From: a virus
DNA length: 30,395 bases
IMG/VR virus record: IMGVR_UViG_3300030406_006603
Location: 1 to 30,395 of that record
Reading direction: 5' to 3' (one strand)
Shown: positions 15,346 to 27,129 of the stretch, one piece after another
Position numbering within the stretch: position 1 is the stretch's first letter
Layout of the letters: each line of letters starts with the position of its first letter
The notes under the pieces: model-generated
Database searches by the model: none
What the model saw: only the letters and a program-made list of their open reading frames with translations
Told to the model about the DNA's origin: nothing
Translations under genes and position numbers: made by a program

Positions 15346-15650
15346 CAGCTTGGATATTATTTTCTATTAGTTTGATTATAAACATTGTGTTTGTCTGGTA
15401 CTTACGACAACTTGCAACACAGTTCACCAGTTTTAGAAGTAGCTTTGAGGAGTTTATCTATGTGGTTGATCAGTATAAGGAGCACGTTAGTGAGGTTAGT
15501 CAAATGGAAGCATATTTTGGTGACGAAACAATTGCAAACCTGTTGCGTCACACTGTAGAAATACTTGAATTTGTAGATGGATATAGTCAATCGTTTTCTC
15601 TAGATCTAGAAATAGAAGAGGAAACGGAACAAGATGCCGAGGAAATCTAA
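15342..15650 (+). CDS. Small membrane-anchored protein of unknown function
   Basis: This 102-residue protein has one clear N-terminal membrane segment, WILFSISLIINIVFVWYL (residues 4-21). A helical, charged domain follows (FRSSFEEFIYVVDQYKEHVS) and then a strongly acidic end (EIEEETEQDAEEI). The likely layout is an inner-membrane anchor with the rest in the cytoplasm. No family is recognised. It is coupled by ATGA to the zinc-ribbon gene and overlaps the gp55 start by 17 bases, so it is made with the transcription block. Holin is unlikely: there is one membrane segment followed by a long soluble tail. Confidence 0.7.
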   Translation: MTAWILFSISLIINIVFVWYLRQLATQFTSFRSSFEEFIYVVDQYKEHVSEVSQMEAYFGDETIANLLRHTVEILEFVDGYSQSFSLDLEIEEETEQDAEEI

Positions 15651-16320
15651 ATCAAAAAGACTTTACTTTACAAAAGAGACAGAAAAAGCAATTGTAGAAT
15701 ATGCTAGTACTGATGACATAAACATCAGAACAAAACTTTATATTGAAGAGATACAGCCAGCATTAAATGAGCTAGTGGATAAAATTGTTTATACCTATAA
15801 GTTTACTTCATTAGAAAATATAGACACTCTAAAAGAAGATTGCAAACTATGGCTGACTACGATTTTAGATAAATTCAATGCCGATAGGGGTACAAAAGCG
15901 TACTCATATTATTCAGTTGTAACTAAAAACTGGTTTACCCATCAGGCTAAAAAACAATCAAAAAAGAACAGACGAGAAATACAATATGATTCAGTAGCAC
16001 TGAAGTTAGAATCATCTACAACAGATGAAGACAACGACATATCAGATGAAATAGAGGATAGGCAGTTTTGGCTTTTTTTGATGAAAGAAATTGATAGCTG
16101 GGAAACAGAGGATCTTCGTGAGAATGAGCGTAAAGTTTTAGGCGCTATTAGAACTCTCTTCACCAACATTGATAAGATCCAGATTTTTAATAAGAAGGCT
16201 ATTTATTTATACATGCGTGAAATCACAGGTCTAAATACTAAGCAAGTAGTAGGTGGACTTAAAAGACTTCGGGCAAAGTACCACGACTTCAATAAGAAGT
16301 GGAATGAAGGTGAGGTATAA
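15634..16320 (+). CDS. 55: Late-transcription sigma factor, T4 gp55-like
   Basis: This 228-residue protein matches the T4 gp55 type of reduced sigma factor, which directs host RNA polymerase core to late promoters. The sigma region 2-like core reads LKEDCKLWLTTILDKFNADR and continues GTKAYSYYSVVTKNWFTHQA, the helix pair that grips the beta' clamp and reads the TATAAATA box. The basic N-terminus (MPRKSKSKRL) and a KKQSKKNRRE stretch follow the same pattern. There is no region 4, as expected. It is slightly longer than the T4 protein (185 residues). No clear C-terminal sliding-clamp-binding motif is visible in KKWNEGEV. It starts inside the membrane-protein gene after a GGAA site. Confidence 0.88.
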   Translation: MPRKSKSKRLYFTKETEKAIVEYASTDDINIRTKLYIEEIQPALNELVDKIVYTYKFTSLENIDTLKEDCKLWLTTILDKFNADRGTKAYSYYSVVTKNWFTHQAKKQSKKNRREIQYDSVALKLESSTTDEDNDISDEIEDRQFWLFLMKEIDSWETEDLRENERKVLGAIRTLFTNIDKIQIFNKKAIYLYMREITGLNTKQVVGGLKRLRAKYHDFNKKWNEGEV

Positions 16321-16323
16321 TGA

Positions 16324-16620
16324 ATGTCAGACAACTTAGATGTATTAATTGCTAGAGCCCTTACCAATATTGATGATGATAGAGCCACAACAGAAGAGCT
16401 TTTATCAGAGTTAAAAGATTACCTGTCTGTGTCAAAAGATAGATACGCTGAATCAGGCACTGTAGCAGCAAAACTAGTGGAAACACTACAGAGATCCAAC
16501 GAACAATTAGTTAAGTTAGCTGCCATTGTTCATAAGAAAGAGGCAACTAAAAGTTCACAGAACTTAACAGAGTTAGATAAAGACGAGCTATTTGATATAA
16601 TTCAAAGTGGCGGTGAATAA
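16324..16620 (+). CDS. Small acidic helical protein between gp55 and hub genes
   Basis: This 98-residue protein starts MSDNLDVLIARALTNIDDD. It is almost entirely helical in character (TEELLSELKDYLSVSKDRYA, VAAKLVETLQRSNEQLVKLA) and ends with TELDKDELFDIIQSGGE. No family is recognised with confidence. Its size, place after gp55, and acidic-hydrophobic end would fit an accessory factor such as the gp33 late co-activator, but a small terminase-type or packaging protein is also possible. The start follows GAGG by a few bases and a TAATGA junction. The stop overlaps the next start (TAATG). Coupling to gp55 is likely. Confidence 0.65.
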   Translation: MSDNLDVLIARALTNIDDDRATTEELLSELKDYLSVSKDRYAESGTVAAKLVETLQRSNEQLVKLAAIVHKKEATKSSQNLTELDKDELFDIIQSGGE

Positions 16621-18710
16621 TGCCCAGCGGCACCAAGAAAGATACAGTCTTTGATAAGTTCTTGGAGATGGTAGATACTATCAGCAATACACCAGTAAAT
16701 TCACCTGCTAGTACGCAAAAGCCAAAGAGCGTTGTTAGATCTGCTGCCGAGGCACAAGTAGAAAAAGCTTCTCCTGATGTTGGGACTGGTCGTTCTTTTG
16801 AAATGGGCATGGTCCTAAAAGTAACGGAGCAAGATGATAGCCGACTAGCAGGAAACAACTTTATATTTTCTGCAACAGGGGCAAAAACAATTGTTGTTAA
16901 AGCACTCACAAAAGATGTGTCAAAAAGATTCCCAACAGATAAGAATGATAAAATTATAGATCAGTACCCAACGTTTACTGGTCCTATAAGCACACTTGGT
17001 GGTGTAAAGCCAACTGTTGGTTCTATTATTGATATCATGTATTATGATAGAAACAATCCATTAGGCGGCGGGATCATTTTGGGCTTTCATCGTGGAGGTC
17101 AAAAACAGCAAGATGATTTTACTATATTTGACTCTCTTAAGGGTTGTAAAGAGGTCTTATCACAAGGAATGAGCACAACCCACAATGCAGGCGAAAGCTT
17201 GCCTGGCAGAAATGCTGAAATACAATCGGGAAAAGATGCAGACGGTGTTCCCCTACCAAATAAAGCTCGCAAAGAGGAAGGGAGCACTGTAGCAGAAGCA
17301 GCAGCTACTCCTAGTAATGGCGTTCCCACAACAAAGAAAAAAATTGCTGAAGTAGATAAAGCAAAGGAATCAACAGCTAGCGGGGAAGCAGCAGAGCCAG
17401 TTAAGTGCAACACTTCATATCAGCTTTCGGATGTATCAGAAACTGGAAACCAAACAGGAAAGAATGAAGACCGCACCAGACAAAAAGATATCCCAGATGA
17501 CTTAGCAAGAGCGTATGAAATATCTAAAGCTACAGGCATATCACCTAGGCTGCTACTAGCATTTATTCGTGTTGAGAGCAAGGGTAATCCCAGGGCAGTT
17601 AGATTTGAACCACATGCTTTTCTGAGTAAAAACAAAAAAAGAAGACCATGGGCAAGACCAGACTTAGAAGGTAAGATACCTTATACTCCAAGAAATAAAA
17701 AGCCTCCTCAAAGCAAGGACCGAGCTTGGTACTTAAGTAGAAAAAGAAATGAGACAAATAAGTCTGCTTTTGATAAAGCATTTGCACTTGATGAAGAGGC
17801 AGCCGTCAAATCAACATCATTTGGATCATTCCAAGTTATGGGCGAGTGGCTTATAAAAGCGTATAAAACTGCACTGGCAGGCGTAACAGCATATAATAAT
17901 GACCCAGTAAAAGTTTCTGATGAGATGGTTACTGCTTGGATTAATGCAAATCGCCGCTTTAAACGAGCAGCTTTGAAGCCAGAAGCGTCTTTAGATTTTG
18001 TTTTGTTAGCAAGATACTACAATGGACCAGGACAAAAAGAATATTATGGAAAACTATTAAAAGAAGCATATGCTGATATAGGTCCAGTTCCAGCAAATGC
18101 TGAAGCAGCGAGACGCCAGCGCCCTTCTCCTGCAACAGATGGTCCAACAGTAGACAGGTATAATACGAGATCAGGACAATTAATAGAGCGTGGGGCACCT
18201 GCTAAGGATGTTAAAAGATATAATAATAATCTTATGAGCAGACCGAATAATCAAACTAAAGTGGTGTGGGAGCCAGTTGCACAAGCTTTTGAAAGAATGA
18301 GAGCAGATGCGCAAAAAGAGGGTCATAACATTATTCTAAATTCTGGACAAAGAACATTTGAAGATCAGCTAAATTTAAGAAGACGATTTGTAATTGATAA
18401 AAGCAAAGTAGGAGATAACAGATATCTTACAACTGCCTCAGTAAGAAAATTTAAACCTTTATGTGCAGCGCCAGGACGATCTAATCACCAGAGTGGAATA
18501 GCAGTTGATATAAACACAGGCAGTCCCTTGCGAGGCGGCGGACCAAGCCCAGTTTATAAATGGCTTTGTTTAAACGCTCACCGCTTTGGGTTTGTACGAA
18601 CTGTTAGAAGTGAAAGGTGGCACTGGGAGTTTAAAGGCAACAAGGCGTCCAGACTTCGTTTTTCTAGAGTTAAGAAAAATCACCCAACTTGGGATGGAAT
18701 ATTCGCATGA
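16620..18710 (+). CDS. 5: Baseplate hub protein, gp5-like: OB fold + N-acetylmuramidase + M15 peptidase
   Basis: This 696-residue hub protein counts as the gp5 equivalent of the tail tip. Residues 55-160 form an OB-fold-like unit (FEMGMVLKVTEQDD, VGSIIDIMYYDRN, GGGIILGFHRGGQ). A low-complexity Ala/Lys/Glu linker follows (about 165-290). Residues 295-490 match phage N-acetylmuramidases: LLLAFIRVESKGNP with candidate catalytic E319, then RFEPHAF and STSFGSFQVMG. Residues 545-690 are an M15/VanY-like peptidase: SNHQSGIAVDIN with zinc ligands H623 and D630, then SERWHWEF with E665 and H668. So one chain can cut both glycan strands and peptides of the host wall, whereas T4 gp5 carries a single lysozyme domain. 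The beta-helix needle of T4 gp5 is not in this chain. ATGA links it to the next gene. Confidence 0.87.
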   Translation: MPSGTKKDTVFDKFLEMVDTISNTPVNSPASTQKPKSVVRSAAEAQVEKASPDVGTGRSFEMGMVLKVTEQDDSRLAGNNFIFSATGAKTIVVKALTKDVSKRFPTDKNDKIIDQYPTFTGPISTLGGVKPTVGSIIDIMYYDRNNPLGGGIILGFHRGGQKQQDDFTIFDSLKGCKEVLSQGMSTTHNAGESLPGRNAEIQSGKDADGVPLPNKARKEEGSTVAEAAATPSNGVPTTKKKIAEVDKAKESTASGEAAEPVKCNTSYQLSDVSETGNQTGKNEDRTRQKDIPDDLARAYEISKATGISPRLLLAFIRVESKGNPRAVRFEPHAFLSKNKKRRPWARPDLEGKIPYTPRNKKPPQSKDRAWYLSRKRNETNKSAFDKAFALDEEAAVKSTSFGSFQVMGEWLIKAYKTALAGVTAYNNDPVKVSDEMVTAWINANRRFKRAALKPEASLDFVLLARYYNGPGQKEYYGKLLKEAYADIGPVPANAEAARRQRPSPATDGPTVDRYNTRSGQLIERGAPAKDVKRYNNNLMSRPNNQTKVVWEPVAQAFERMRADAQKEGHNIILNSGQRTFEDQLNLRRRFVIDKSKVGDNRYLTTASVRKFKPLCAAPGRSNHQSGIAVDINTGSPLRGGGPSPVYKWLCLNAHRFGFVRTVRSERWHWEFKGNKASRLRFSRVKKNHPTWDGIFA

Positions 18711-19645
18711 GTAAAGATACTATTGTAAAAGCAGTTGATACACAGGGCGTATCACAAACAAAGAAAAACCTTATAGAGCGCAAGAAGGGTGATGCGGGTG
18801 GTGTAGACCACACACATATCACTGAGCCGCATGGTAATCTCTTAATCAAAGGTCAAGAAAAAATAATAGAGGGGCAAAACAACAACTTTATTATTATGGG
18901 TAGGGACCGTCCTGGTGATGGTAAAGACGGCTATGGTGGCGCAGGTCACACCCACACTTCTACAATTAGGCTTATTGCTGGCTTACATGGGAGAGATGTA
19001 AAAGAAACAAGCATCAAAAAAGATAATAATAGTGTCCAAGAGGAAAGGGTGTTTTTGCAGCCAAGCCCCTCAAAAGATGCGGCGACCATCTATATGTCCC
19101 AAAAGACAGACATTGATAGTTCATTTAATATTTCCACAGGCGGAAGATACGGTGCACCACAAGGCAGATCAGCAGTACTAATGAAAGCTGATTGCATTAG
19201 ATTAGTTGGTCGTGAAAGTCTTAAAATAGTAACAAAGACAGAAAACAAAAACTCTTTGAAAGGCAATATTCGTGGAAGACCAGGCATTGAATTGATAGCT
19301 GGTAATGACACTACAGATATGCAGCCGCTCGTTAAGGGTAAAAATTTAGTATCTGCAATGTCTGATGTTATAGAAGTAATAAACCAGTTATCAAACATTG
19401 TAGAGCAGTTAGCTATTGCAGTTCAGTCTGGTGCTGCTGGTATGATACCCTCTCCAACACCTGCTGGCTTGGTTGGCATAGCAGCTTTCCCAGGTAAATT
19501 AGTAGCTGCACCACTGGCAGTAACATATAGCACAATGGCATTAAGTTATCTGCCTGCACTAAAAACTAATTTAACAATGTTAGAAGAGATCAAGTTAAAA
19601 TATTCAGAGAACAAATTACTTAGTAGACATAATATGACTAACTAA
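18707..19645 (+). CDS. Putative baseplate spike/needle protein (beta-helix-like)
   Basis: This 312-residue protein directly follows the gp5-like hub gene (ATGA overlap). It begins with a histidine-rich part (VDHTHITEPHGNLLIKG, then GYGGAGHTHTSTIRLIAG). A central region of short alternating strands follows, such as RSAVLMKADCIRLVGRESLK and IVTKTENKNS, of the kind found in the triple beta-helix of gp5/VgrG spikes. A hydrophobic C-terminal helical part follows (LVSAMSDVIEVINQLSNIVE). The best guess is the needle half of T4 gp5 as a separate gene. The His clusters could bind a metal, as in spike tips. No family is certain. ATG 18707 is chosen. The reading from 18689 lies inside the hub gene. Confidence 0.6.
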   Translation: MSKDTIVKAVDTQGVSQTKKNLIERKKGDAGGVDHTHITEPHGNLLIKGQEKIIEGQNNNFIIMGRDRPGDGKDGYGGAGHTHTSTIRLIAGLHGRDVKETSIKKDNNSVQEERVFLQPSPSKDAATIYMSQKTDIDSSFNISTGGRYGAPQGRSAVLMKADCIRLVGRESLKIVTKTENKNSLKGNIRGRPGIELIAGNDTTDMQPLVKGKNLVSAMSDVIEVINQLSNIVEQLAIAVQSGAAGMIPSPTPAGLVGIAAFPGKLVAAPLAVTYSTMALSYLPALKTNLTMLEEIKLKYSENKLLSRHNMTN

Positions 19646-19655
19646 AGGATGTGAC

Positions 19656-22600
19656 ATGTCAGAACGTATAGATCAAGACTTAGCAGGAAATCCAGAACCA
19701 GACCTCCGCCCTCTATCAAATGAGGAAAAGTCACAGGTTGATGCTAGTCCAGACCCAAGTCCATTCCTAGATCCAAGGGCATGGGAGCCAAGCTTTCCAA
19801 GTTCTACAATAGAACGAGCAGGTATTGAAGGCAATACTTGGTTTCAGCAGTATCACGAGAAAACAAAGTCTGACCAGCTTATTCAATTCAAACAAAAATG
19901 GATTCACTATTGTGTAAAAAAACACATTAAGTTTGCTTTTCCATATAAACTAACAAGGGATAGGTTCACAGCACAAAGAATCAAAACAACGATTGATTAT
20001 CAAGACGTTTTATATTATGCTGCGCTCCACCCTCACACTATCGCTGGCTTTATTGAGAGAAGGGATAAAGAAAATAATATAAAACACATTTTTCAATACC
20101 TTGAAAAAACTAAAGTAGGTAACGAGCCTGGTATCATATATTGCCGTCGGATTATGACGAGCAGAGGAATGATCGTACAGTCAGCTACTACTACTATAAA
20201 TAACCCAATTACACCTGAGCATAAAGAAGTTGTTCCTACTGCTGAAGAAAGTAAAGAGATAAAAGAGTCTACCGACAAGGCAGCTTCAGAAACAAAAGAT
20301 CTCCAACCTAAGCCTCGTCCTCAAAGAACTTCCATACAGAGGAGAGAAGAGCAGATAGCACGCCGATCGCAGCCTGATCACGACCCCGCAAAGCCAACAG
20401 CAAATGAGGATAGGGAGGCGGTTTTTACAGGCGGTTATGGATCACTTACTTGGGGCTATACCCTAGTTGATGGTAGTTCTGGATTTCTAGATCGTCCAAC
20501 ATCTAAAAACATAGGCAAGATGATTGGTGCGCTAGAATTAAGTGTATCAGGATCTAATAATATTACCGTTAATAAATCTGAATGGACAGATATAACAACG
20601 CTAGCTATACAGTATAATTTTTACGATATAAAGAATGACCCTGGTAAACAGAAGTACATTTACAGGCTGAAATTAAATGAAGGTGAAAATATTGTCCCGA
20701 AACCTCCACCAGAGAGACCACAAAGTGGTGACGGGCAAGTACCAGAAGAAGTTATTTCATATGATCGTATTGCAGAGATCTATCTTGGATCACAAAAGTT
20801 TGAGGATGAAATAAAAGCTCTTGGTAACACAAGGGGAAATGCTAATGCTGCTTTACAAAAATCTGATCTTAGACAGCGCCAACTTGAATACTATAGAAGT
20901 CATGGTATAGCGGGCGTAAGAAAAAAACTTATTGGTGAGCCACCAAGCCAAAAAACAGCTTACACTTATGTGCGAGCAAATGATATAATTGGAAGAACCA
21001 TAGAAGTTAGAGAGCCAAACAGAACACCAGATGAAGAACGAAGAGTGCGAAGAACATTACCAGGTGGTAGAACTTATTTCTTAGAGAAGAGGTTTAAAAA
21101 CCAAAGTCTTGAAGACATTCCACCTGCACAGCGAGATGAAGAGGCTAACAACACAAGGACTGCTACTGAAGCAGTTAATTTTGATGATTGGAAAACAAAC
21201 GTACCAAAAGAAAAAGGTGAGATATTTGCTTATCTTGACAATAGACGTAGAATTTCAGAGAACGGAATCTATGAAGCTGTAGGTACAGCTAGTGGATCTA
21301 TTATAACAAAACAAGATTTTGAAGCACAAAAACAGGCTGAGCAACTTCGTTTTTATAATGCAATATGTAAAAGATTTGGCAAACCAGAGGTGGAAGAATT
21401 TCCACAAGCTATTAAATATTTCTTTTTTGCTAACTACCCTGAACGACCAAACACTCAGGCACTCATGAAGTTCTCTATAAGAAAAGAAGAATTTGATGAG
21501 GCATCACAAGACCAGAATACAAGTCTTGATGTATTGACAATCTCTAGGGCAATTAAAGCTAGTGACCAAAGAGCAAAGAAGAAGTTCTCATATAGCATTA
21601 AGCAACTAGGCGATATTGGCTTTAAGGTAAGTAAGGTGTTATCAAATTACCATGAAATAATGAATGGTCCTGTTTATAGTAACCGTGGTAAAAAAGAAAG
21701 AGAGATTGGAATGAAGCAACTTAATATTGAATCAAATAAAGTAGCTAATTTCCACCATCGTGTTACGGATTTTATGGAAGAACAAAAAATAGAGTTTTCT
21801 GATGATGACCAGATTGAATTCTGCCTAAGTGATAATTTTAAGTTGCTGCACATTATACACAAATCAAAAGTCTACTTCAGCGGCTTTTACAGGGATACAA
21901 TTGATAATGAGATAGGTGCTGCCTTTGATTTGCAGAACGAACCTTTTCCAACGCAATTGACAAACGGCAGAAAGATTATTGATGCAACACATAACCCAAC
22001 AACATTTGGATATCTCTATTTTGCTGAAGAAATAATCAAGCAACATAATAAGATTGGTAAGAAGGACTTGATGCCATGGGTAAAGTTTTTGCAACTTTAT
22101 ACATTTCCAGTGCCAGAAATCAAGCCAGACCAAGCTAAACCAATTCAGAACTCAGAGGAAGAGAGCCCAGGAGATATTGAGCCTATTGTTTCAGGAGATG
22201 GAGTTGATTCTGGACAAGGTGTTACTAATTCTTTAGAGCCACGCTCAGTCACAGAGGGTTCACTTGTTGCATATGAGGCAGACCCAGAGAAAGAAGAAAG
22301 AGAGTCTGCAAGAGCAAGCCGTGTTAAAAATATGGAGACCAAAGCGCAAGACGCAGTATTAAATTGTGATAATCTTCCTGAGCTTGCTAAGCAAATAAAA
22401 ACTATTGAAGATATATTTGAAATCGTGCTTGACAGGATAACTCTATTAGAATTGTTTGGCGAGTTAGCTAACAAGTCAATGCAAGATCTAAAGAAAAACT
22501 TTGCTCTGCTAGATCTTTTAGAAGGGTTTTCACCAGAAGGTCTTAATGGATTTTCAAATAGATTTGATCAATTTGTAGACCAAGAATTATCTTGTGTGAT

Positions 22601-22901
22601 GGATTTTGTTGGCAAATCGCTAGTAGAAGAATTATTCAATGGTGCTAAACTAGAAGATCTTGATATTAATAATTTAGAAGATATTATAAATTCTGAAAGA
22701 TTGCAAGACTATTTTGGTATTGAGTTGCCGTTTATTCCGATTATGGGCTTGATGGATTTCATTCGTAAGATAGTAAAAGAAACTCTAGAGAAAGCACTTA
22801 CACAAGTTCTTCTAGCTCTTGTGTTGGAAGGCTTAGAATCGTATTTAGGGTGTGATGATCTTCCTGGCTCGTTACCAAACGACCTAGCTTCAAAAAACTA
22901 A
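19656..22901 (+). CDS. Large tail/baseplate structural protein of unknown function
   Basis: This 1081-residue protein lies inside the baseplate block, so a structural virion role is likely, but no family is recognised. The N-terminus is acidic and Pro-rich (to about residue 50). A globular part with many aromatic residues follows (60-180), then a charged linker (185-255), then a mixed domain (255-815), then a second acidic linker (about 820-890), and a Leu-rich helical end (about 900-1081) with LLELFGELANKSMQ and LVEELFNGAKLEDL. No signal peptide or enzyme motif is seen. Start 19656 follows AAGGATG. The gene ends TCA-AAA-AAC-TAA, a perfect A_AAA_AAC slippery heptamer directly before the stop. 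It may therefore be read into the next ORF. Confidence 0.75.
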   Translation: MSERIDQDLAGNPEPDLRPLSNEEKSQVDASPDPSPFLDPRAWEPSFPSSTIERAGIEGNTWFQQYHEKTKSDQLIQFKQKWIHYCVKKHIKFAFPYKLTRDRFTAQRIKTTIDYQDVLYYAALHPHTIAGFIERRDKENNIKHIFQYLEKTKVGNEPGIIYCRRIMTSRGMIVQSATTTINNPITPEHKEVVPTAEESKEIKESTDKAASETKDLQPKPRPQRTSIQRREEQIARRSQPDHDPAKPTANEDREAVFTGGYGSLTWGYTLVDGSSGFLDRPTSKNIGKMIGALELSVSGSNNITVNKSEWTDITTLAIQYNFYDIKNDPGKQKYIYRLKLNEGENIVPKPPPERPQSGDGQVPEEVISYDRIAEIYLGSQKFEDEIKALGNTRGNANAALQKSDLRQRQLEYYRSHGIAGVRKKLIGEPPSQKTAYTYVRANDIIGRTIEVREPNRTPDEERRVRRTLPGGRTYFLEKRFKNQSLEDIPPAQRDEEANNTRTATEAVNFDDWKTNVPKEKGEIFAYLDNRRRISENGIYEAVGTASGSIITKQDFEAQKQAEQLRFYNAICKRFGKPEVEEFPQAIKYFFFANYPERPNTQALMKFSIRKEEFDEASQDQNTSLDVLTISRAIKASDQRAKKKFSYSIKQLGDIGFKVSKVLSNYHEIMNGPVYSNRGKKEREIGMKQLNIESNKVANFHHRVTDFMEEQKIEFSDDDQIEFCLSDNFKLLHIIHKSKVYFSGFYRDTIDNEIGAAFDLQNEPFPTQLTNGRKIIDATHNPTTFGYLYFAEEIIKQHNKIGKKDLMPWVKFLQLYTFPVPEIKPDQAKPIQNSEEESPGDIEPIVSGDGVDSGQGVTNSLEPRSVTEGSLVAYEADPEKEERESARASRVKNMETKAQDAVLNCDNLPELAKQIKTIEDIFEIVLDRITLLELFGELANKSMQDLKKNFALLDLLEGFSPEGLNGFSNRFDQFVDQELSCVMDFVGKSLVEELFNGAKLEDLDINNLEDIINSERLQDYFGIELPFIPIMGLMDFIRKIVKETLEKALTQVLLALVLEGLESYLGCDDLPGSLPNDLASKN
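22892..22898 (+). other. A_AAA_AAC slippery heptamer, candidate -1 frameshift site
   Basis: AAAAAAC is in the correct phase of the gene 19656-22901 (A|AAA|AAC) and is followed at once by the TAA at 22899-22901. Slipping one base back gives AAA-AAA-CTA, which continues for 673 codons to the TAA at 24917-24919. No downstream stem within 5-9 bases is strong, and no upstream Shine-Dalgarno-like stimulator is seen. Confidence 0.5.
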
Positions 22902-22939
22902 ATGACTTACTTAAAGAGCAAGGTATAGATTTAGAAGCA

Positions 22940-24919
22940 GTGGCTAATAAACTTAATTCTACGCTAGAAAATGTAGAAAATTTTATGGAGGTCTTATCTA
23001 ACACGCTTAACGCTGCTGAGATTCGCTCACTATTAGAAGGCGACCCTGGTCCACTCTTGCTAGCAATTGTAGGAGAGATCATGGAAAGGTTTGGGCTAGA
23101 CCCAGACGAGGGTAAAAGTACATTTAGAGAAATTGGACAAAGTATACCAAGTGATGTGTTGTTGGATTTTGTACCAGAAAAGTATTATGTAGAATTTTGT
23201 GACGAGCGTGATTTTCTTAATGCTGCACAAATATCTCGTGACCTTCTAAGAAATAAAGGCTTAAATGATGATGATCAAAAACAGCAGGCACAAGATAACA
23301 TTGATGCTGCTGCGGAAAAACTTAAGTCCTTATGCGATATAAAATCACTAGCTCAAGACAGTCTATCAAGTGCACTAGCTAATATAGAAACACCATCTGT
23401 CGTAAAAGATATACAGCAGTCTTCTGAAAATGCACTCAAAAGTTCTGTTAACAATTCTATGTTTAGAGAAGCAGAAAAGTTTATGCTAGGGAGCAGCAAG
23501 CAGGGCGGTTTCTTTTCTGGAGGAGACAGGATAGATTGCGTTACTATGGGCAACGAGAATACACAAACTAAAATTGTTATTGGCTCCTCTAATCCAAACC
23601 AACCACGAGACAGAGAAAAGATTAGATATCTAGATGAAATTGGGAAATATGCACTTGGCGATCTGGAGCTTTATATTGGCGAACAAGACGAAACTGAGTT
23701 TGATAAGCCAAATAAAATTATGATATACCGCCGTGGTGTAAATCTTCAGCAGATGTTAGAAAACCCAAACTTGGCGGAAGAAAACAGAAATGTTCTAGTC
23801 AATCTAACATTACCTGCTCTTATAGACGGGCAAGACGTAGAAAACTACGGCAGTCGTACTCGTGAAGTAGTAAGCCTTTTACCATCTTGGAGAACTGAGA
23901 TACATACTCAAATTGTTCACGGCTTATCTGTCAATAGAGACCAGATAGTTGCCAGCTTTAGTAAGGCGTCTGCAATACTAAGACCGCCAACTGAACAGGA
24001 GGTTGGCTCATATCCAAAACCATTCCTAGATAAAACAGTATATGATAAAGGCGACGGTTTAGAATTTTTAAACGCTGCTTTCTCATTTGGTTTTGGTAGG
24101 GCAAAGCCATCCAAGTCACCAAGACAAGCTTATATAGAATCACCATTATTTGACATAGAAACAGCTTATAAATCTCTTTATGCCCCAATAGAGGATGCCC
24201 CAAAGCTTATTGACGCTGGTCCAAACTTTGAAAAGAAAGCTAAGCGAACAAATATGCTTGTTGGTCTCAGTACAAGAATATATCCATACTTCTGTTCAAT
24301 ATGGCCTATTCTCAGTGATAGTAGAACGGAAAGAGGATTTAGAAACACATTCTCAGGTGGCAGAATACAGTTCCCAGCTAGTGATATAGAAAATCCTGAT
24401 TTAATCATGAGGAAGATGATTGTTAACTATTTGGCTAGAAAGGTCAGGTTTGACCTTGAAGATGAAAGATTAGATGAGGTATACAATAAAGTAATACAAG
24501 AAGACTATTCTTTGGAAGAAGTTATTGATGCTATTGTAGAGCCACTATTTTCTGATCCAGTTAATAATAGTCAGAACATCCTAAGTCAATCACCTAGAGC
24601 AAACTATGGAGCGATGTTTACACAATATTTTGATCTTGTGCCAAGACAACAAAAAGCAACATTTTTACAGTCTGCGGAGCGGGTAGCCCCTCGTCTATCC
24701 AATGAATCAGACGAAGACTATCTAGAAAGAGTGTTTGCCAGTTCAGTGCCAGATGATGTATACAGTCCAACACAAGCATTATGTGCCATGGCAACTATTT
24801 ACTTAGATGCATCTACAAATATAGATTCTTTGGTTGGTACAACGTTCAGTGGCACTAAAAATAGTGCTGATACCATACTTAAGAAAATGGTTGGTCTATC
24901 AGAAGGAAACTTTAAGTAA
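22940..24919 (+). CDS. Large tail/baseplate structural protein of unknown function (possible frameshift product of the preceding ORF)
   Basis: Read from GTG at 22940 this is 659 residues. No ATG is available: the frame opens at 22859 and GTG 22940 is its first usual start codon, with no clear ribosome binding site before it. From the shifted frame of the preceding ORF it gains 14 residues (LNDLLKEQGIDLEA), and the join reads as one helix running into ANKLNSTLENVENFMEVLSN. The N-terminal 60 or so residues are Leu-rich helices, then SLLEGDPGPLLLAIVGEIME, two cysteine-containing stretches, and a mixed C-terminal body with LPSWRTEIHTQIVHG and FCSIWPILSD. No family is recognised. It overlaps gp25 by one base (TAATG). 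A baseplate role is inferred from position. Confidence 0.7.
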   Translation: MANKLNSTLENVENFMEVLSNTLNAAEIRSLLEGDPGPLLLAIVGEIMERFGLDPDEGKSTFREIGQSIPSDVLLDFVPEKYYVEFCDERDFLNAAQISRDLLRNKGLNDDDQKQQAQDNIDAAAEKLKSLCDIKSLAQDSLSSALANIETPSVVKDIQQSSENALKSSVNNSMFREAEKFMLGSSKQGGFFSGGDRIDCVTMGNENTQTKIVIGSSNPNQPRDREKIRYLDEIGKYALGDLELYIGEQDETEFDKPNKIMIYRRGVNLQQMLENPNLAEENRNVLVNLTLPALIDGQDVENYGSRTREVVSLLPSWRTEIHTQIVHGLSVNRDQIVASFSKASAILRPPTEQEVGSYPKPFLDKTVYDKGDGLEFLNAAFSFGFGRAKPSKSPRQAYIESPLFDIETAYKSLYAPIEDAPKLIDAGPNFEKKAKRTNMLVGLSTRIYPYFCSIWPILSDSRTERGFRNTFSGGRIQFPASDIENPDLIMRKMIVNYLARKVRFDLEDERLDEVYNKVIQEDYSLEEVIDAIVEPLFSDPVNNSQNILSQSPRANYGAMFTQYFDLVPRQQKATFLQSAERVAPRLSNESDEDYLERVFASSVPDDVYSPTQALCAMATIYLDASTNIDSLVGTTFSGTKNSADTILKKMVGLSEGNFK

Positions 24920-25317
24920 TGGCTATTGGGATATCACCAGCACTACCTTTATCCATAGATCCTAAAGACGGAGCATATGGACTAAACAAAAACCTTCGCC
25001 AATCAATCAGACAAAACCTTAAAAACCTAATTCTTACTACTAAAGGTGAGAGAGTAATGTTACCAGACTTTGGTGTTGGGTTAAGAAATTTTCTCTTTGA
25101 AAACTTTACTCCTGCGGTTCTTACCAATATAAGCGACGAGATAAAATCTCAAGTGGCTAGTTACATGCCTTTCGTTAATGTACGCCGTATTAACTTTTTT
25201 GATAGCGAGTCTAATCCAGACACGATCGCTGAAAACGAATTAAGAATATCAATTGTCTACGATATTTTACCGTTAGACGACACAGATACATTAACCATAA
25301 CTGAAGTAACGAGCTAA
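24919..25317 (+). CDS. 25: Baseplate wedge protein gp25
   Basis: This 132-residue protein is the T4 gp25-type wedge subunit, the same length as T4 gp25. It belongs to the GPW_gp25 family that forms the core bundle of contractile-tail baseplates and type VI secretion systems. The signature is LILTTKGERVMLPDFGVGLR, followed by NFLFENFTPA and PFVNVRRINFF. It works with gp6 and gp53 to hold the wedge and start the sheath. It overlaps the upstream gene by one base and leads into gp6 after 21 bases, the usual gp25-gp6 order. Confidence 0.93.
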   Translation: MAIGISPALPLSIDPKDGAYGLNKNLRQSIRQNLKNLILTTKGERVMLPDFGVGLRNFLFENFTPAVLTNISDEIKSQVASYMPFVNVRRINFFDSESNPDTIAENELRISIVYDILPLDDTDTLTITEVTS

Positions 25318-25338: not shown

Positions 25339-27129
25339 ATGGCTAAAAAAAGACCTGTAAAATATGTTAGTAGAGATTTCCAAGATATCAAGAATTCCTT
25401 GGTTAATCATGCTAAAAGATATTATCCTGACTCATTTAAGGATTTTAACGAGGCTTCATTCGGTTCACTCATGTTAGACACAATAGCATATATTGGTGAT
25501 AACCTATCATTCTATTTAGATTATCAAACAAATGAAGGGTTCTTGGACAGCGCCATAGAAACTAAAAATATTAACCGCTTAGCAAAACAACTTGGATATA
25601 AACCAACAGGAACTTCCTCCACAGAAGGTGTGGTCACAATTTATATTCTCATACCAGCGTCTACAAACGCCAGAGGTGTAGATGAAGAATATCTACCGAT
25701 TTTGAAGAGGGGGTCTAAATTTAGTGCTGAGGGCGGCGGCGTATATACTCTACAAGAAGACGTAGATTTTGCTAACCCAGATAATGAAGTTGTAGTTGCT
25801 AAAGTAGATACCAATACAGGTGATCCAACCTACTTTGCAGTAAAAGCAAAAGGAAGGGTAATATCTGGAGAGTTGTTCACAGAAAATATTACTGTTGGTG
25901 ATTACAATAAATTTCTAAAACTCAAACTTGATGGCGTAGGGATAAGTGAAATTATTTCTGTATTTGACACAGAAGGTAATCAGTATTATGAAGTCCCATA
26001 CCTATCGCAGAATGTTATTTATGAACAGATAGAAAACAGAGCAAGTGATAAGACATCAGTTCCATTTAGTTTAAGACTTAAGCCAGTTCCAAGAAGGTTT
26101 ACAGTTGACTTTGAAGACGGTGAGACTTACATACAATTTGGGTTTGGATCTTCAGACAACCTCACAACAGATTTGATTGCTGACCCTGCGGATGTAGTTT
26201 TAGATGTGCACGGAAGAAACTACCAAACAGATGATTCATTTGACCCAAGCAACTTAATTAAAAATGATAAGTTTGGTGTTGCACCAGAGAACACTGTTCT
26301 AACGATTGCTTATCGTGCGAATGACGCAGTTACATCCAACGCAGCAGTAAATACAATTACAACCGCATTAGAGCCAAATCTTGTATTTAAAAACAGAGCT
26401 TCACTCTCGGAAAATGTAGTAGAATATATTTTATCAACTATAGAATCAACAAACGAACAAGCGATAGTCGGCGACGTATCAGAACCAGATCAAGAAGAAG
26501 TTAGAACAAGAGCATTTGATTCTTATGCTTCACAGAATAGAGCAGTAACAAAACAAGACTACATTGCTTTATGTTACAGAATGCCAAGAGGCTTTGGTTC
26601 CATTAAGAGAGCGTCCATATCTCAAGACAAAGATTCATTCAAAAGAAATCTTAATTTACATGTTTTGTCAGAGGATGTCAATCAAAATTTTATAACTCCA
26701 TCAATAACTTTATTAAATAATTTAAAAAACTGGCTGAATCAGTATAAAATGATTAATGATACTATTGATATCATACCAGGGAGGATTGTCAACTTGTCAA
26801 TTGATTTTGAAGTTGTTACTGATGTAGACGTCAATAAGTTTGATGTTCTCAATGCATGTATCGCTGAGATTAAAGATGAGTTTGGAACAAAGAAAAACAT
26901 GGGTGAACCTTTCTATATCTCTGATGTATTTAAGGTACTAAATAGAGTGCCAGGCGTTATAGATACAGTATTTGTTGATGTTGATACAAAAACAGAATCT
27001 GGGTACAGTCAATTTCCATTTGATATTGACCTAAACACAAGCCCAGATGGAAAGATTATATCTGCGCCCGATAACACTGTGTTTGAAATACGAGATTTTG
27101 ATCAAGATGTCCAGGGAGTTGCTAGATAA
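25339..27129 (+). CDS. 6: Baseplate wedge protein gp6 (Baseplate_J-like)
   Basis: This 596-residue wedge protein is near the length of T4 gp6 (660). It starts with the typical YVSRDFQDIKNSLVNHAKRY and has SLMLDTIAYIGDNLSFYLDY close behind. The central part includes FEDGETYIQFGFGSSDN. The family core follows at VRTRAFDSYASQNRAVTKQD, where gp6/J proteins orient on the wedge. The C-terminal half has the GDVSEPDQEEVRTR and VPGVIDTVFVDV elements. It assembles as a ring in the baseplate inner part and undergoes the hexagon-to-star change. Its stop overlaps the next start (TAATG). Confidence 0.93.
   Translation: MAKKRPVKYVSRDFQDIKNSLVNHAKRYYPDSFKDFNEASFGSLMLDTIAYIGDNLSFYLDYQTNEGFLDSAIETKNINRLAKQLGYKPTGTSSTEGVVTIYILIPASTNARGVDEEYLPILKRGSKFSAEGGGVYTLQEDVDFANPDNEVVVAKVDTNTGDPTYFAVKAKGRVISGELFTENITVGDYNKFLKLKLDGVGISEIISVFDTEGNQYYEVPYLSQNVIYEQIENRASDKTSVPFSLRLKPVPRRFTVDFEDGETYIQFGFGSSDNLTTDLIADPADVVLDVHGRNYQTDDSFDPSNLIKNDKFGVAPENTVLTIAYRANDAVTSNAAVNTITTALEPNLVFKNRASLSENVVEYILSTIESTNEQAIVGDVSEPDQEEVRTRAFDSYASQNRAVTKQDYIALCYRMPRGFGSIKRASISQDKDSFKRNLNLHVLSEDVNQNFITPSITLLNNLKNWLNQYKMINDTIDIIPGRIVNLSIDFEVVTDVDVNKFDVLNACIAEIKDEFGTKKNMGEPFYISDVFKVLNRVPGVIDTVFVDVDTKTESGYSQFPFDIDLNTSPDGKIISAPDNTVFEIRDFDQDVQGVAR

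Follow-up and report, generated by a model that had tools for sequence, protein, structure and literature searches.

The window, by which we mean the whole 30,395-nucleotide stretch analysed here (positions 1 to 30,395 of IMG/VR record IMGVR_UViG_3300030406_006603), contains a run of genes in the order 98-aa gene, 696-aa ORF, 312-aa gene, one large gene, gp25 and a gp6-type wedge. Coordinates are reported in Table 1. The 696-aa ORF is tightly packed between its neighbours: its start shares one base with the stop of the upstream gene (TAATG, 16618-16622), and the 312-aa ORF starts at the ATG at 18707, so that the sequence ATGA (18707-18710) overlaps the stop of the 696-aa ORF. In related loci, the position upstream of gp25-gp6 is fixed, and the two genes bordering the slot occupied by the 696-aa ORF were kept in 131 loci. 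The 98-aa protein on the left border (16324-16620) is highly conserved, with an almost constant QRSNEQLVK stretch, and its gene adjoins a gp55-like gene, the 228-aa gene at 15634..16320, whose product we take to resemble the T4 gp55-type late sigma factor. For gp6, the closest annotated isolates were Flavobacterium phage immuto and Microcystis phage Mel-JY01, at ~32-33% identity.

Table 1. Coordinates of the features of the hub-type locus in the window
Feature	Position	Strand	Residues	Remarks
Conserved 228-aa gene	15634..16320	+		Upstream of the 98-aa gene
Conserved 98-aa gene	16324..16620	+		Left border of the slot
Predicted two-enzyme hub-type protein	16620..18710	+	696 aa	ORF with ATG start
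OB-like N-terminal domain	16797..17096	+	aa ~60-159	Common to the slot family
Linker	17187..17489	+	aa ~190-290	Low model confidence (pLDDT), relaxed (dN/dS)
Predicted N-acetylmuramidase domain, PF11860	17556..18077	+	aa 313-486	E319, E330, H332
Predicted VanY-type M15 metallopeptidase domain, PF02557	18273..18638	+	aa 552-673	H623, D630, E665, H668, R578
Coupled neighbour, possible spike	18707..19645	+	312 aa	ATGA overlap
gp25 baseplate wedge	24919..25317	+		PF04965, E 1.3e-15
gp6-type baseplate wedge	25339..27129	+		phrog_219, E 2.7e-21

Two other features of the window were recorded. The large downstream gene (19656-24919) is split into 1081 and 659 aa, and is a single 1767-aa ORF in the related locus L002; the pieces of a BLASTN comparison of the two, whose ends overlap by 9 bases, imply that the window lacks 40 bases near 22887-22895, through either a deletion or the assembly collapse of a repeat. 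Between 1948 and 14856 lies a long series of genes resembling those of glycosyltransferases, epimerases, aminotransferases, acetyltransferases and methyltransferases, a sugar-modification island flanked by PhoH/exonuclease genes and by the baseplate genes.

A first-pass annotation of this DNA had described the 696-aa product as a tail hub carrying two different wall-cutting enzymes, and had proposed structure prediction and a survey of hub domain combinations as checks. With Pfam, both enzyme domains were well above their gathering cut-offs: PF11860 (Muramidase) scored 57.1 bits against a cut-off of 22.3 (E 3.7e-15) and PF02557 (VanY) 59.9 bits against a cut-off of 25 (E 2.9e-16). PHROGs matches of the muramidase part pointed to endolysin families, and those of the VanY part to a tape-measure family. 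The AlphaFold2 model of the full protein had a low overall pLDDT of 58.2, with values below 50 at residues 158-292, in the linker region, and at residues 611-625, near the M15 site; both enzyme domains nevertheless matched known folds, the muramidase domain with Z 13-14 to the Pae87, AP3 and LysT84 muramidases, and the M15 domain with Z ~10 to LdcB/VanY peptidases. The same two domains, in the same order, were also found in loci L035, L006, L008, L054 and L142. Because two independent domains exceed curated thresholds, because the pair and its order recur in relatives, and because dN/dS is low (see below), the pairing is not a chance one. Domain matches and models thus confirm that a single ORF encodes two different wall-cutting folds, both predicted enzymes.

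The annotation had also held both catalytic sets to be intact, and at the level of residues this proved right. All residues were found at the numbers given (E319; RFEPH, 328-332; TSFGSFQVMG, 399-408; H623; D630; E665; H668), and E319, E330, H623, D630, E665 and H668 were unchanged across five aligned relatives. In ten hub muramidase domains, E319, R328, F329, E330 and H332 were constant, and when a profile of these ten domains was aligned with LysT84 (7rum), the VES and FEpH motifs of the two coincided, the window contributing E319 and E330. For the M15 domain, H623, D630 and H668 are presumably the zinc ligands and E665, in ExxH spacing, the base, as judged from the family; together with R578, all are present. 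Within the slot family as a whole, the seven-residue M15 set was identical in 24 of 47 aligned domains, the others differing or being unaligned at some position. Concerning the muramidase, Pae87, another PF11860 enzyme, is reported to require Glu29 and Glu46 (PMC8972805), and AP3gp15, of the same family, Glu101 (PMC5674055). The second muramidase glutamate of the window, E330 within RFEPH, to which the first-pass annotation had given no separate mention, corresponds to Glu46 of Pae87 (PMC8972805), and E319, E330 and H332 align with E29, E46 and H48, so that the catalytic set of PF11860 is complete.

Purifying selection acts on the muramidase and M15 domains, and both are retained. For the pair L006 and L008, the Nei-Gojobori method gave dN and dS values of 0.041 and 0.622 for the muramidase, 0.035 and 0.638 for the M15 domain, and 0.131 and 0.707 for the linker, whose dN/dS is above that of both enzyme domains. 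Between the window and L004, dN was 0.265 for the muramidase, 0.141 for the M15 domain and 0.193 for the linker, dN alone being informative in this pair as dS is large or saturated.

What the M15 domain may cut is a separate matter. The classical activity of VanY-type M15 enzymes is that of a carboxypeptidase, so that cleavage of cross-links by this domain cannot be claimed. It is conceivable, although we rather doubt it, that one domain alone opens the wall and that the M15 domain serves for binding, or for trimming as a carboxypeptidase, and leaves the mesh uncut, an arrangement compatible with a hub role. The closest M15 sequences and structures, which are VanY/LdcB carboxypeptidases, are in line with this, as are L019 and L016, in which the last two M15 motif residues are unaligned; the retention of H, D, E, H and R in the window lineage under purifying selection argues against it. 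The first-pass annotation had gone further, and explained the cutting of both glycan and peptide by a thick or unusual peptidoglycan. This reason found no support, as the slot holds a single enzyme, or none recognised, in phages of identical gene order, and as enzymes resembling carboxypeptidases need not cut cross-links. Thick peptidoglycan is not needed as an explanation and was set aside.

The assignment as a tail hub held in part. In its favour are the baseplate position, the gene overlap and the OB-like N-terminus. Residues 55-159 matched the OB-fold chain IF1 with Z 7.4 and the P1 baseplate chain q with Z 7.1, values near 7 which may mean a common arrangement only. The corresponding profile was present in 101 of 124 slot proteins, including those of L027, L031 and L191, which are 163-214 aa long and consist of the N-terminal domain alone, with no recognised enzyme. 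This persistence in short proteins indicates that the slot is a structural part, to which enzymes are optional. Sequence homology with T4 gp5 was not detected. Gp5_OB (PF06714) gave no match in the 696-aa protein at E up to 1, whereas T4 gp5 itself matched at 5.4e-66; hhalign of the N-terminus against T4 gp5 gave a probability of 0.3, and a profile search of the PDB returned no T4 gp5 homology. Profile comparison likewise detected none between the N-terminus and gp5 of P-HM2, nor was any sequence homology found between the coupled 312-aa gene and either T4 gp5 or the P-HM2 gp5 pair. The model of the 312-aa product (pLDDT 49.7) was too poor for use, and the matches listed for it, mostly coiled coils, included no phage spike. 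From place and architecture, rather than from shown descent, the 696-aa protein is likely of the hub type.

Could it instead be a two-domain endolysin, serving lysis and lying in a baseplate operon by chance? PF11860 is best known from endolysins, and two long contigs, G001 and G002, have no match to PF11860 or to PF02557 other than the ORF of the 696-aa type. We consider this very improbable, given the overlaps with genes on both sides, the fixed place before gp25-gp6, and a large conserved OB-like domain, retained even where no enzyme is recognised in the slot protein. A virion wall enzyme that is an accessory of the tail tip and not its hub is also unlikely, albeit less remote. P-HM2 offers a precedent, with a separate 610-aa VanY protein (PF02557, E 3.2e-8) as well as a distinct gp5 pair, and the lack of gp5 homology in the window protein would fit. 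Against it, no other gp5-type gene was found with Gp5_OB in any of the 11 related long contigs searched, nor in immuto or Mel-JY01, with a profile that matched the T4 and P-HM2 records but may miss divergent hubs. Moreover, an OB-like N-terminus followed by an overlapping gene is reminiscent of P-HM2, in which gp5 is split into two genes.

We surveyed the slot in relatives. Used as a single-sequence query against viral contigs, the full 696-aa protein retrieved no relatives; these were found through anchors, namely gp6, the coupled gene, an alignment of hubs and the 228-aa gene lying upstream (80 of 561 relatives kept in the latter scan). We examined 198 sequences, the window and L001 being one gene. 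The slot was complete in 131, and the other 67 were dropped; the 131 represent 106 distinct viral sequences, and 99 clusters at 90% identity. Retrieval of the loci relied on similarity to the window, so that the frequencies below are not natural ones, and the hub-query loci (L048-L117) were chosen partly by their M15 motif. Labels came from local iterated domain profiles seeded with Pfam-identified domains. The N-terminal domain was accompanied by M15 in 25 of 99 clusters, by M23 in 14 and by a separate M15 gene in 10, and in 21 it stood without any of the four profiled enzymes. Muramidase plus M15 was found in 5 clusters, amidase in 4, M15 plus amidase in 3, amidase plus M23 in 2 and muramidase in 2, besides rarer kinds; some slots hold two or three genes, part of which may be split genes, and one distinct slot (L101) has no listed ORF. 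Two enzyme types in one polypeptide were thus present in 10 of 99 clusters, and in 12 of 87 distinct slots, near-copies included, among loci retrieved with anchors other than the hub.

For most of the labelled proteins submitted to it, a subset, Pfam agreed with the local labels. Two domains above cut-off were found in the window, L035, L006, L008, L054, L142, L154, L171, L040 and L044. Slightly below cut-off were the VanY domains of L019 and L016, the muramidase of L155 and the amidase of L039; L042 was weak, and L181, labelled M15 locally, had no Pfam match. Among 30 slot proteins with no local enzyme label, Pfam recognised SLT in 3, Phage_lysozyme in 2, M74 in 2, DUF2272 in 2, GDSL in 1 and M15_4 in 1. 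Judged from these domain assignments, the slot is a carrier of exchangeable predicted enzymes, M15, M23, amidase, muramidase and others. For 98 of the 106 distinct slots, a tree of the upstream 228-aa gene was built by a quick method, nine long branches being flagged as unsure; on it, the enzyme labels required at least 31 changes, for a minimum possible of 8 and a mean of 55 after shuffling. Enzyme labels are clustered on the tree, yet have changed many times. The muramidase-M15 pair accounts for 2 changes and may have a single origin.

Several slots contain more than one gene with a docking domain or with an M15 domain. In L155 (10006-14627, IMGVR_UViG_3300030419_007281), three tandem paralogues, each with the N-terminal docking domain, bear a GDSL hydrolase-like, a muramidase and an amidase domain, of which the GDSL-like and the muramidase domain scored below the Pfam cut-off; they might assemble into a hetero-trimeric tip armed with three enzymes of different kinds. 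Locus L028 (593-3163; likewise in L032) has two adjacent docking-domain paralogues of 411 and 433 aa, the second with a sub-threshold SLT match only. In L103 (6353-8597) and L100 (6200-8582), the first gene is M15-like, its last two motif residues being unaligned, and the second is an M15 with the full motif. As a tentative generalisation, to which we give limited credence, the hub gene might, across this large marine T4-like family, be a socket, a conserved docking domain on which wall-cutting enzymes are exchanged again and again, singly or paired, some hubs such as that of L155 perhaps being hetero-trimeric with three enzymes.

As to the host, psbA was absent from 15 of 15 contigs searched. 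The major capsid protein of one relative, L198, had its nearest counterparts in Mel-JY01, immuto and an uncultured phage (37-45% identity). In the slot region of the nearest isolates, immuto, Mel-JY01 and LR756508, seven proteins had no Pfam match.

Taken together, the 696-aa protein is quite probably a tail-tip hub subunit of a marine T4-like (far-T4) phage, whose muramidase and VanY-type peptidase would open the wall locally. In this scheme it is part of the virion, docked into the baseplate through its OB-like domain, putatively as a trimer, with the N-acetylmuramidase and the VanY-type zinc peptidase borne by the flexible linker. Upon sheath contraction, the hub and the coupled downstream protein would cross the outer membrane. 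The muramidase would then cut glycan strands and the zinc peptidase attack stem peptides, leaving a small local hole in the peptidoglycan.

According to a review, virion lysins with endopeptidase domains are almost confined to phages that infect Gram-positive hosts (PMC6116005). In the slot survey, M15, M23 and amidase domains were frequent on the probable tail-tip gene of marine T4-like phages. The slot family offers natural enzyme combinations on one scaffold for asking which wall-cutting activity an injection machine needs. L155, with three enzyme domains on three docking-domain paralogues, is a more unusual lead than the muramidase-M15 pair.

Compared with known systems, the locus resembles that of T4 gp5 in having a baseplate gene with an N-terminal domain that is OB-like in the window, a predicted wall enzyme and then a possible spike. 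Pfam recognised a single Phage_lysozyme domain in T4 gp5, as the first-pass annotation had stated; the T4 spike is in the same chain, and no sequence homology to the window protein was detected. P-HM2 has hub and C-terminal part as adjacent genes, as would be the case in the window, and a VanY enzyme in its tail-tip gene cluster; there, however, VanY is on its own gene near gp26/gp51, and neither hub nor coupled gene showed detectable sequence homology. Pae87, AP3gp15 and LysT84 share the catalytic domain family and residues of the window muramidase, but are endolysins and not tail proteins. In phi29, gp13 also has a lysozyme-like domain, and so pairs it with a peptidase at the tail tip; its N-terminal part (3csq) matched the window model with Z 9.1, and to our knowledge it has no OB-type hub domain. 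It differs in belonging to a Bacillus podovirus, and the peptidase of this tail-tip protein is of the M23 type (PMC9662197).

INPHARED yielded no protein that combines muramidase and M15 in a single chain: 61 records had single-domain matches and 0 covered 80% of the 696-aa protein. Nor was a description of this pair found among the titles and abstracts listed for the open-access literature. The nearest precedent is the hub gp15 of cyanophage A-1(L), for which lysozyme, endoglucanase and peptidase domains are reported, the latter two being separately active on host cells in vitro (PMC10966104). Both are contractile-tail hubs, by prediction in our case, with several hydrolytic domains, the activities of the window protein being predicted from sequence. 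In two record pieces taken to be gp15, Pfam found DPBB_1 (E 2.6e-17) and Peptidase_M23 (E 4.3e-11), not PF11860 and M15, and the phage is of another lineage. From what is reported for gp15 (PMC10966104), the principle of a hub with two hydrolytic activities is already known, and it is the enzyme pair that differs here.
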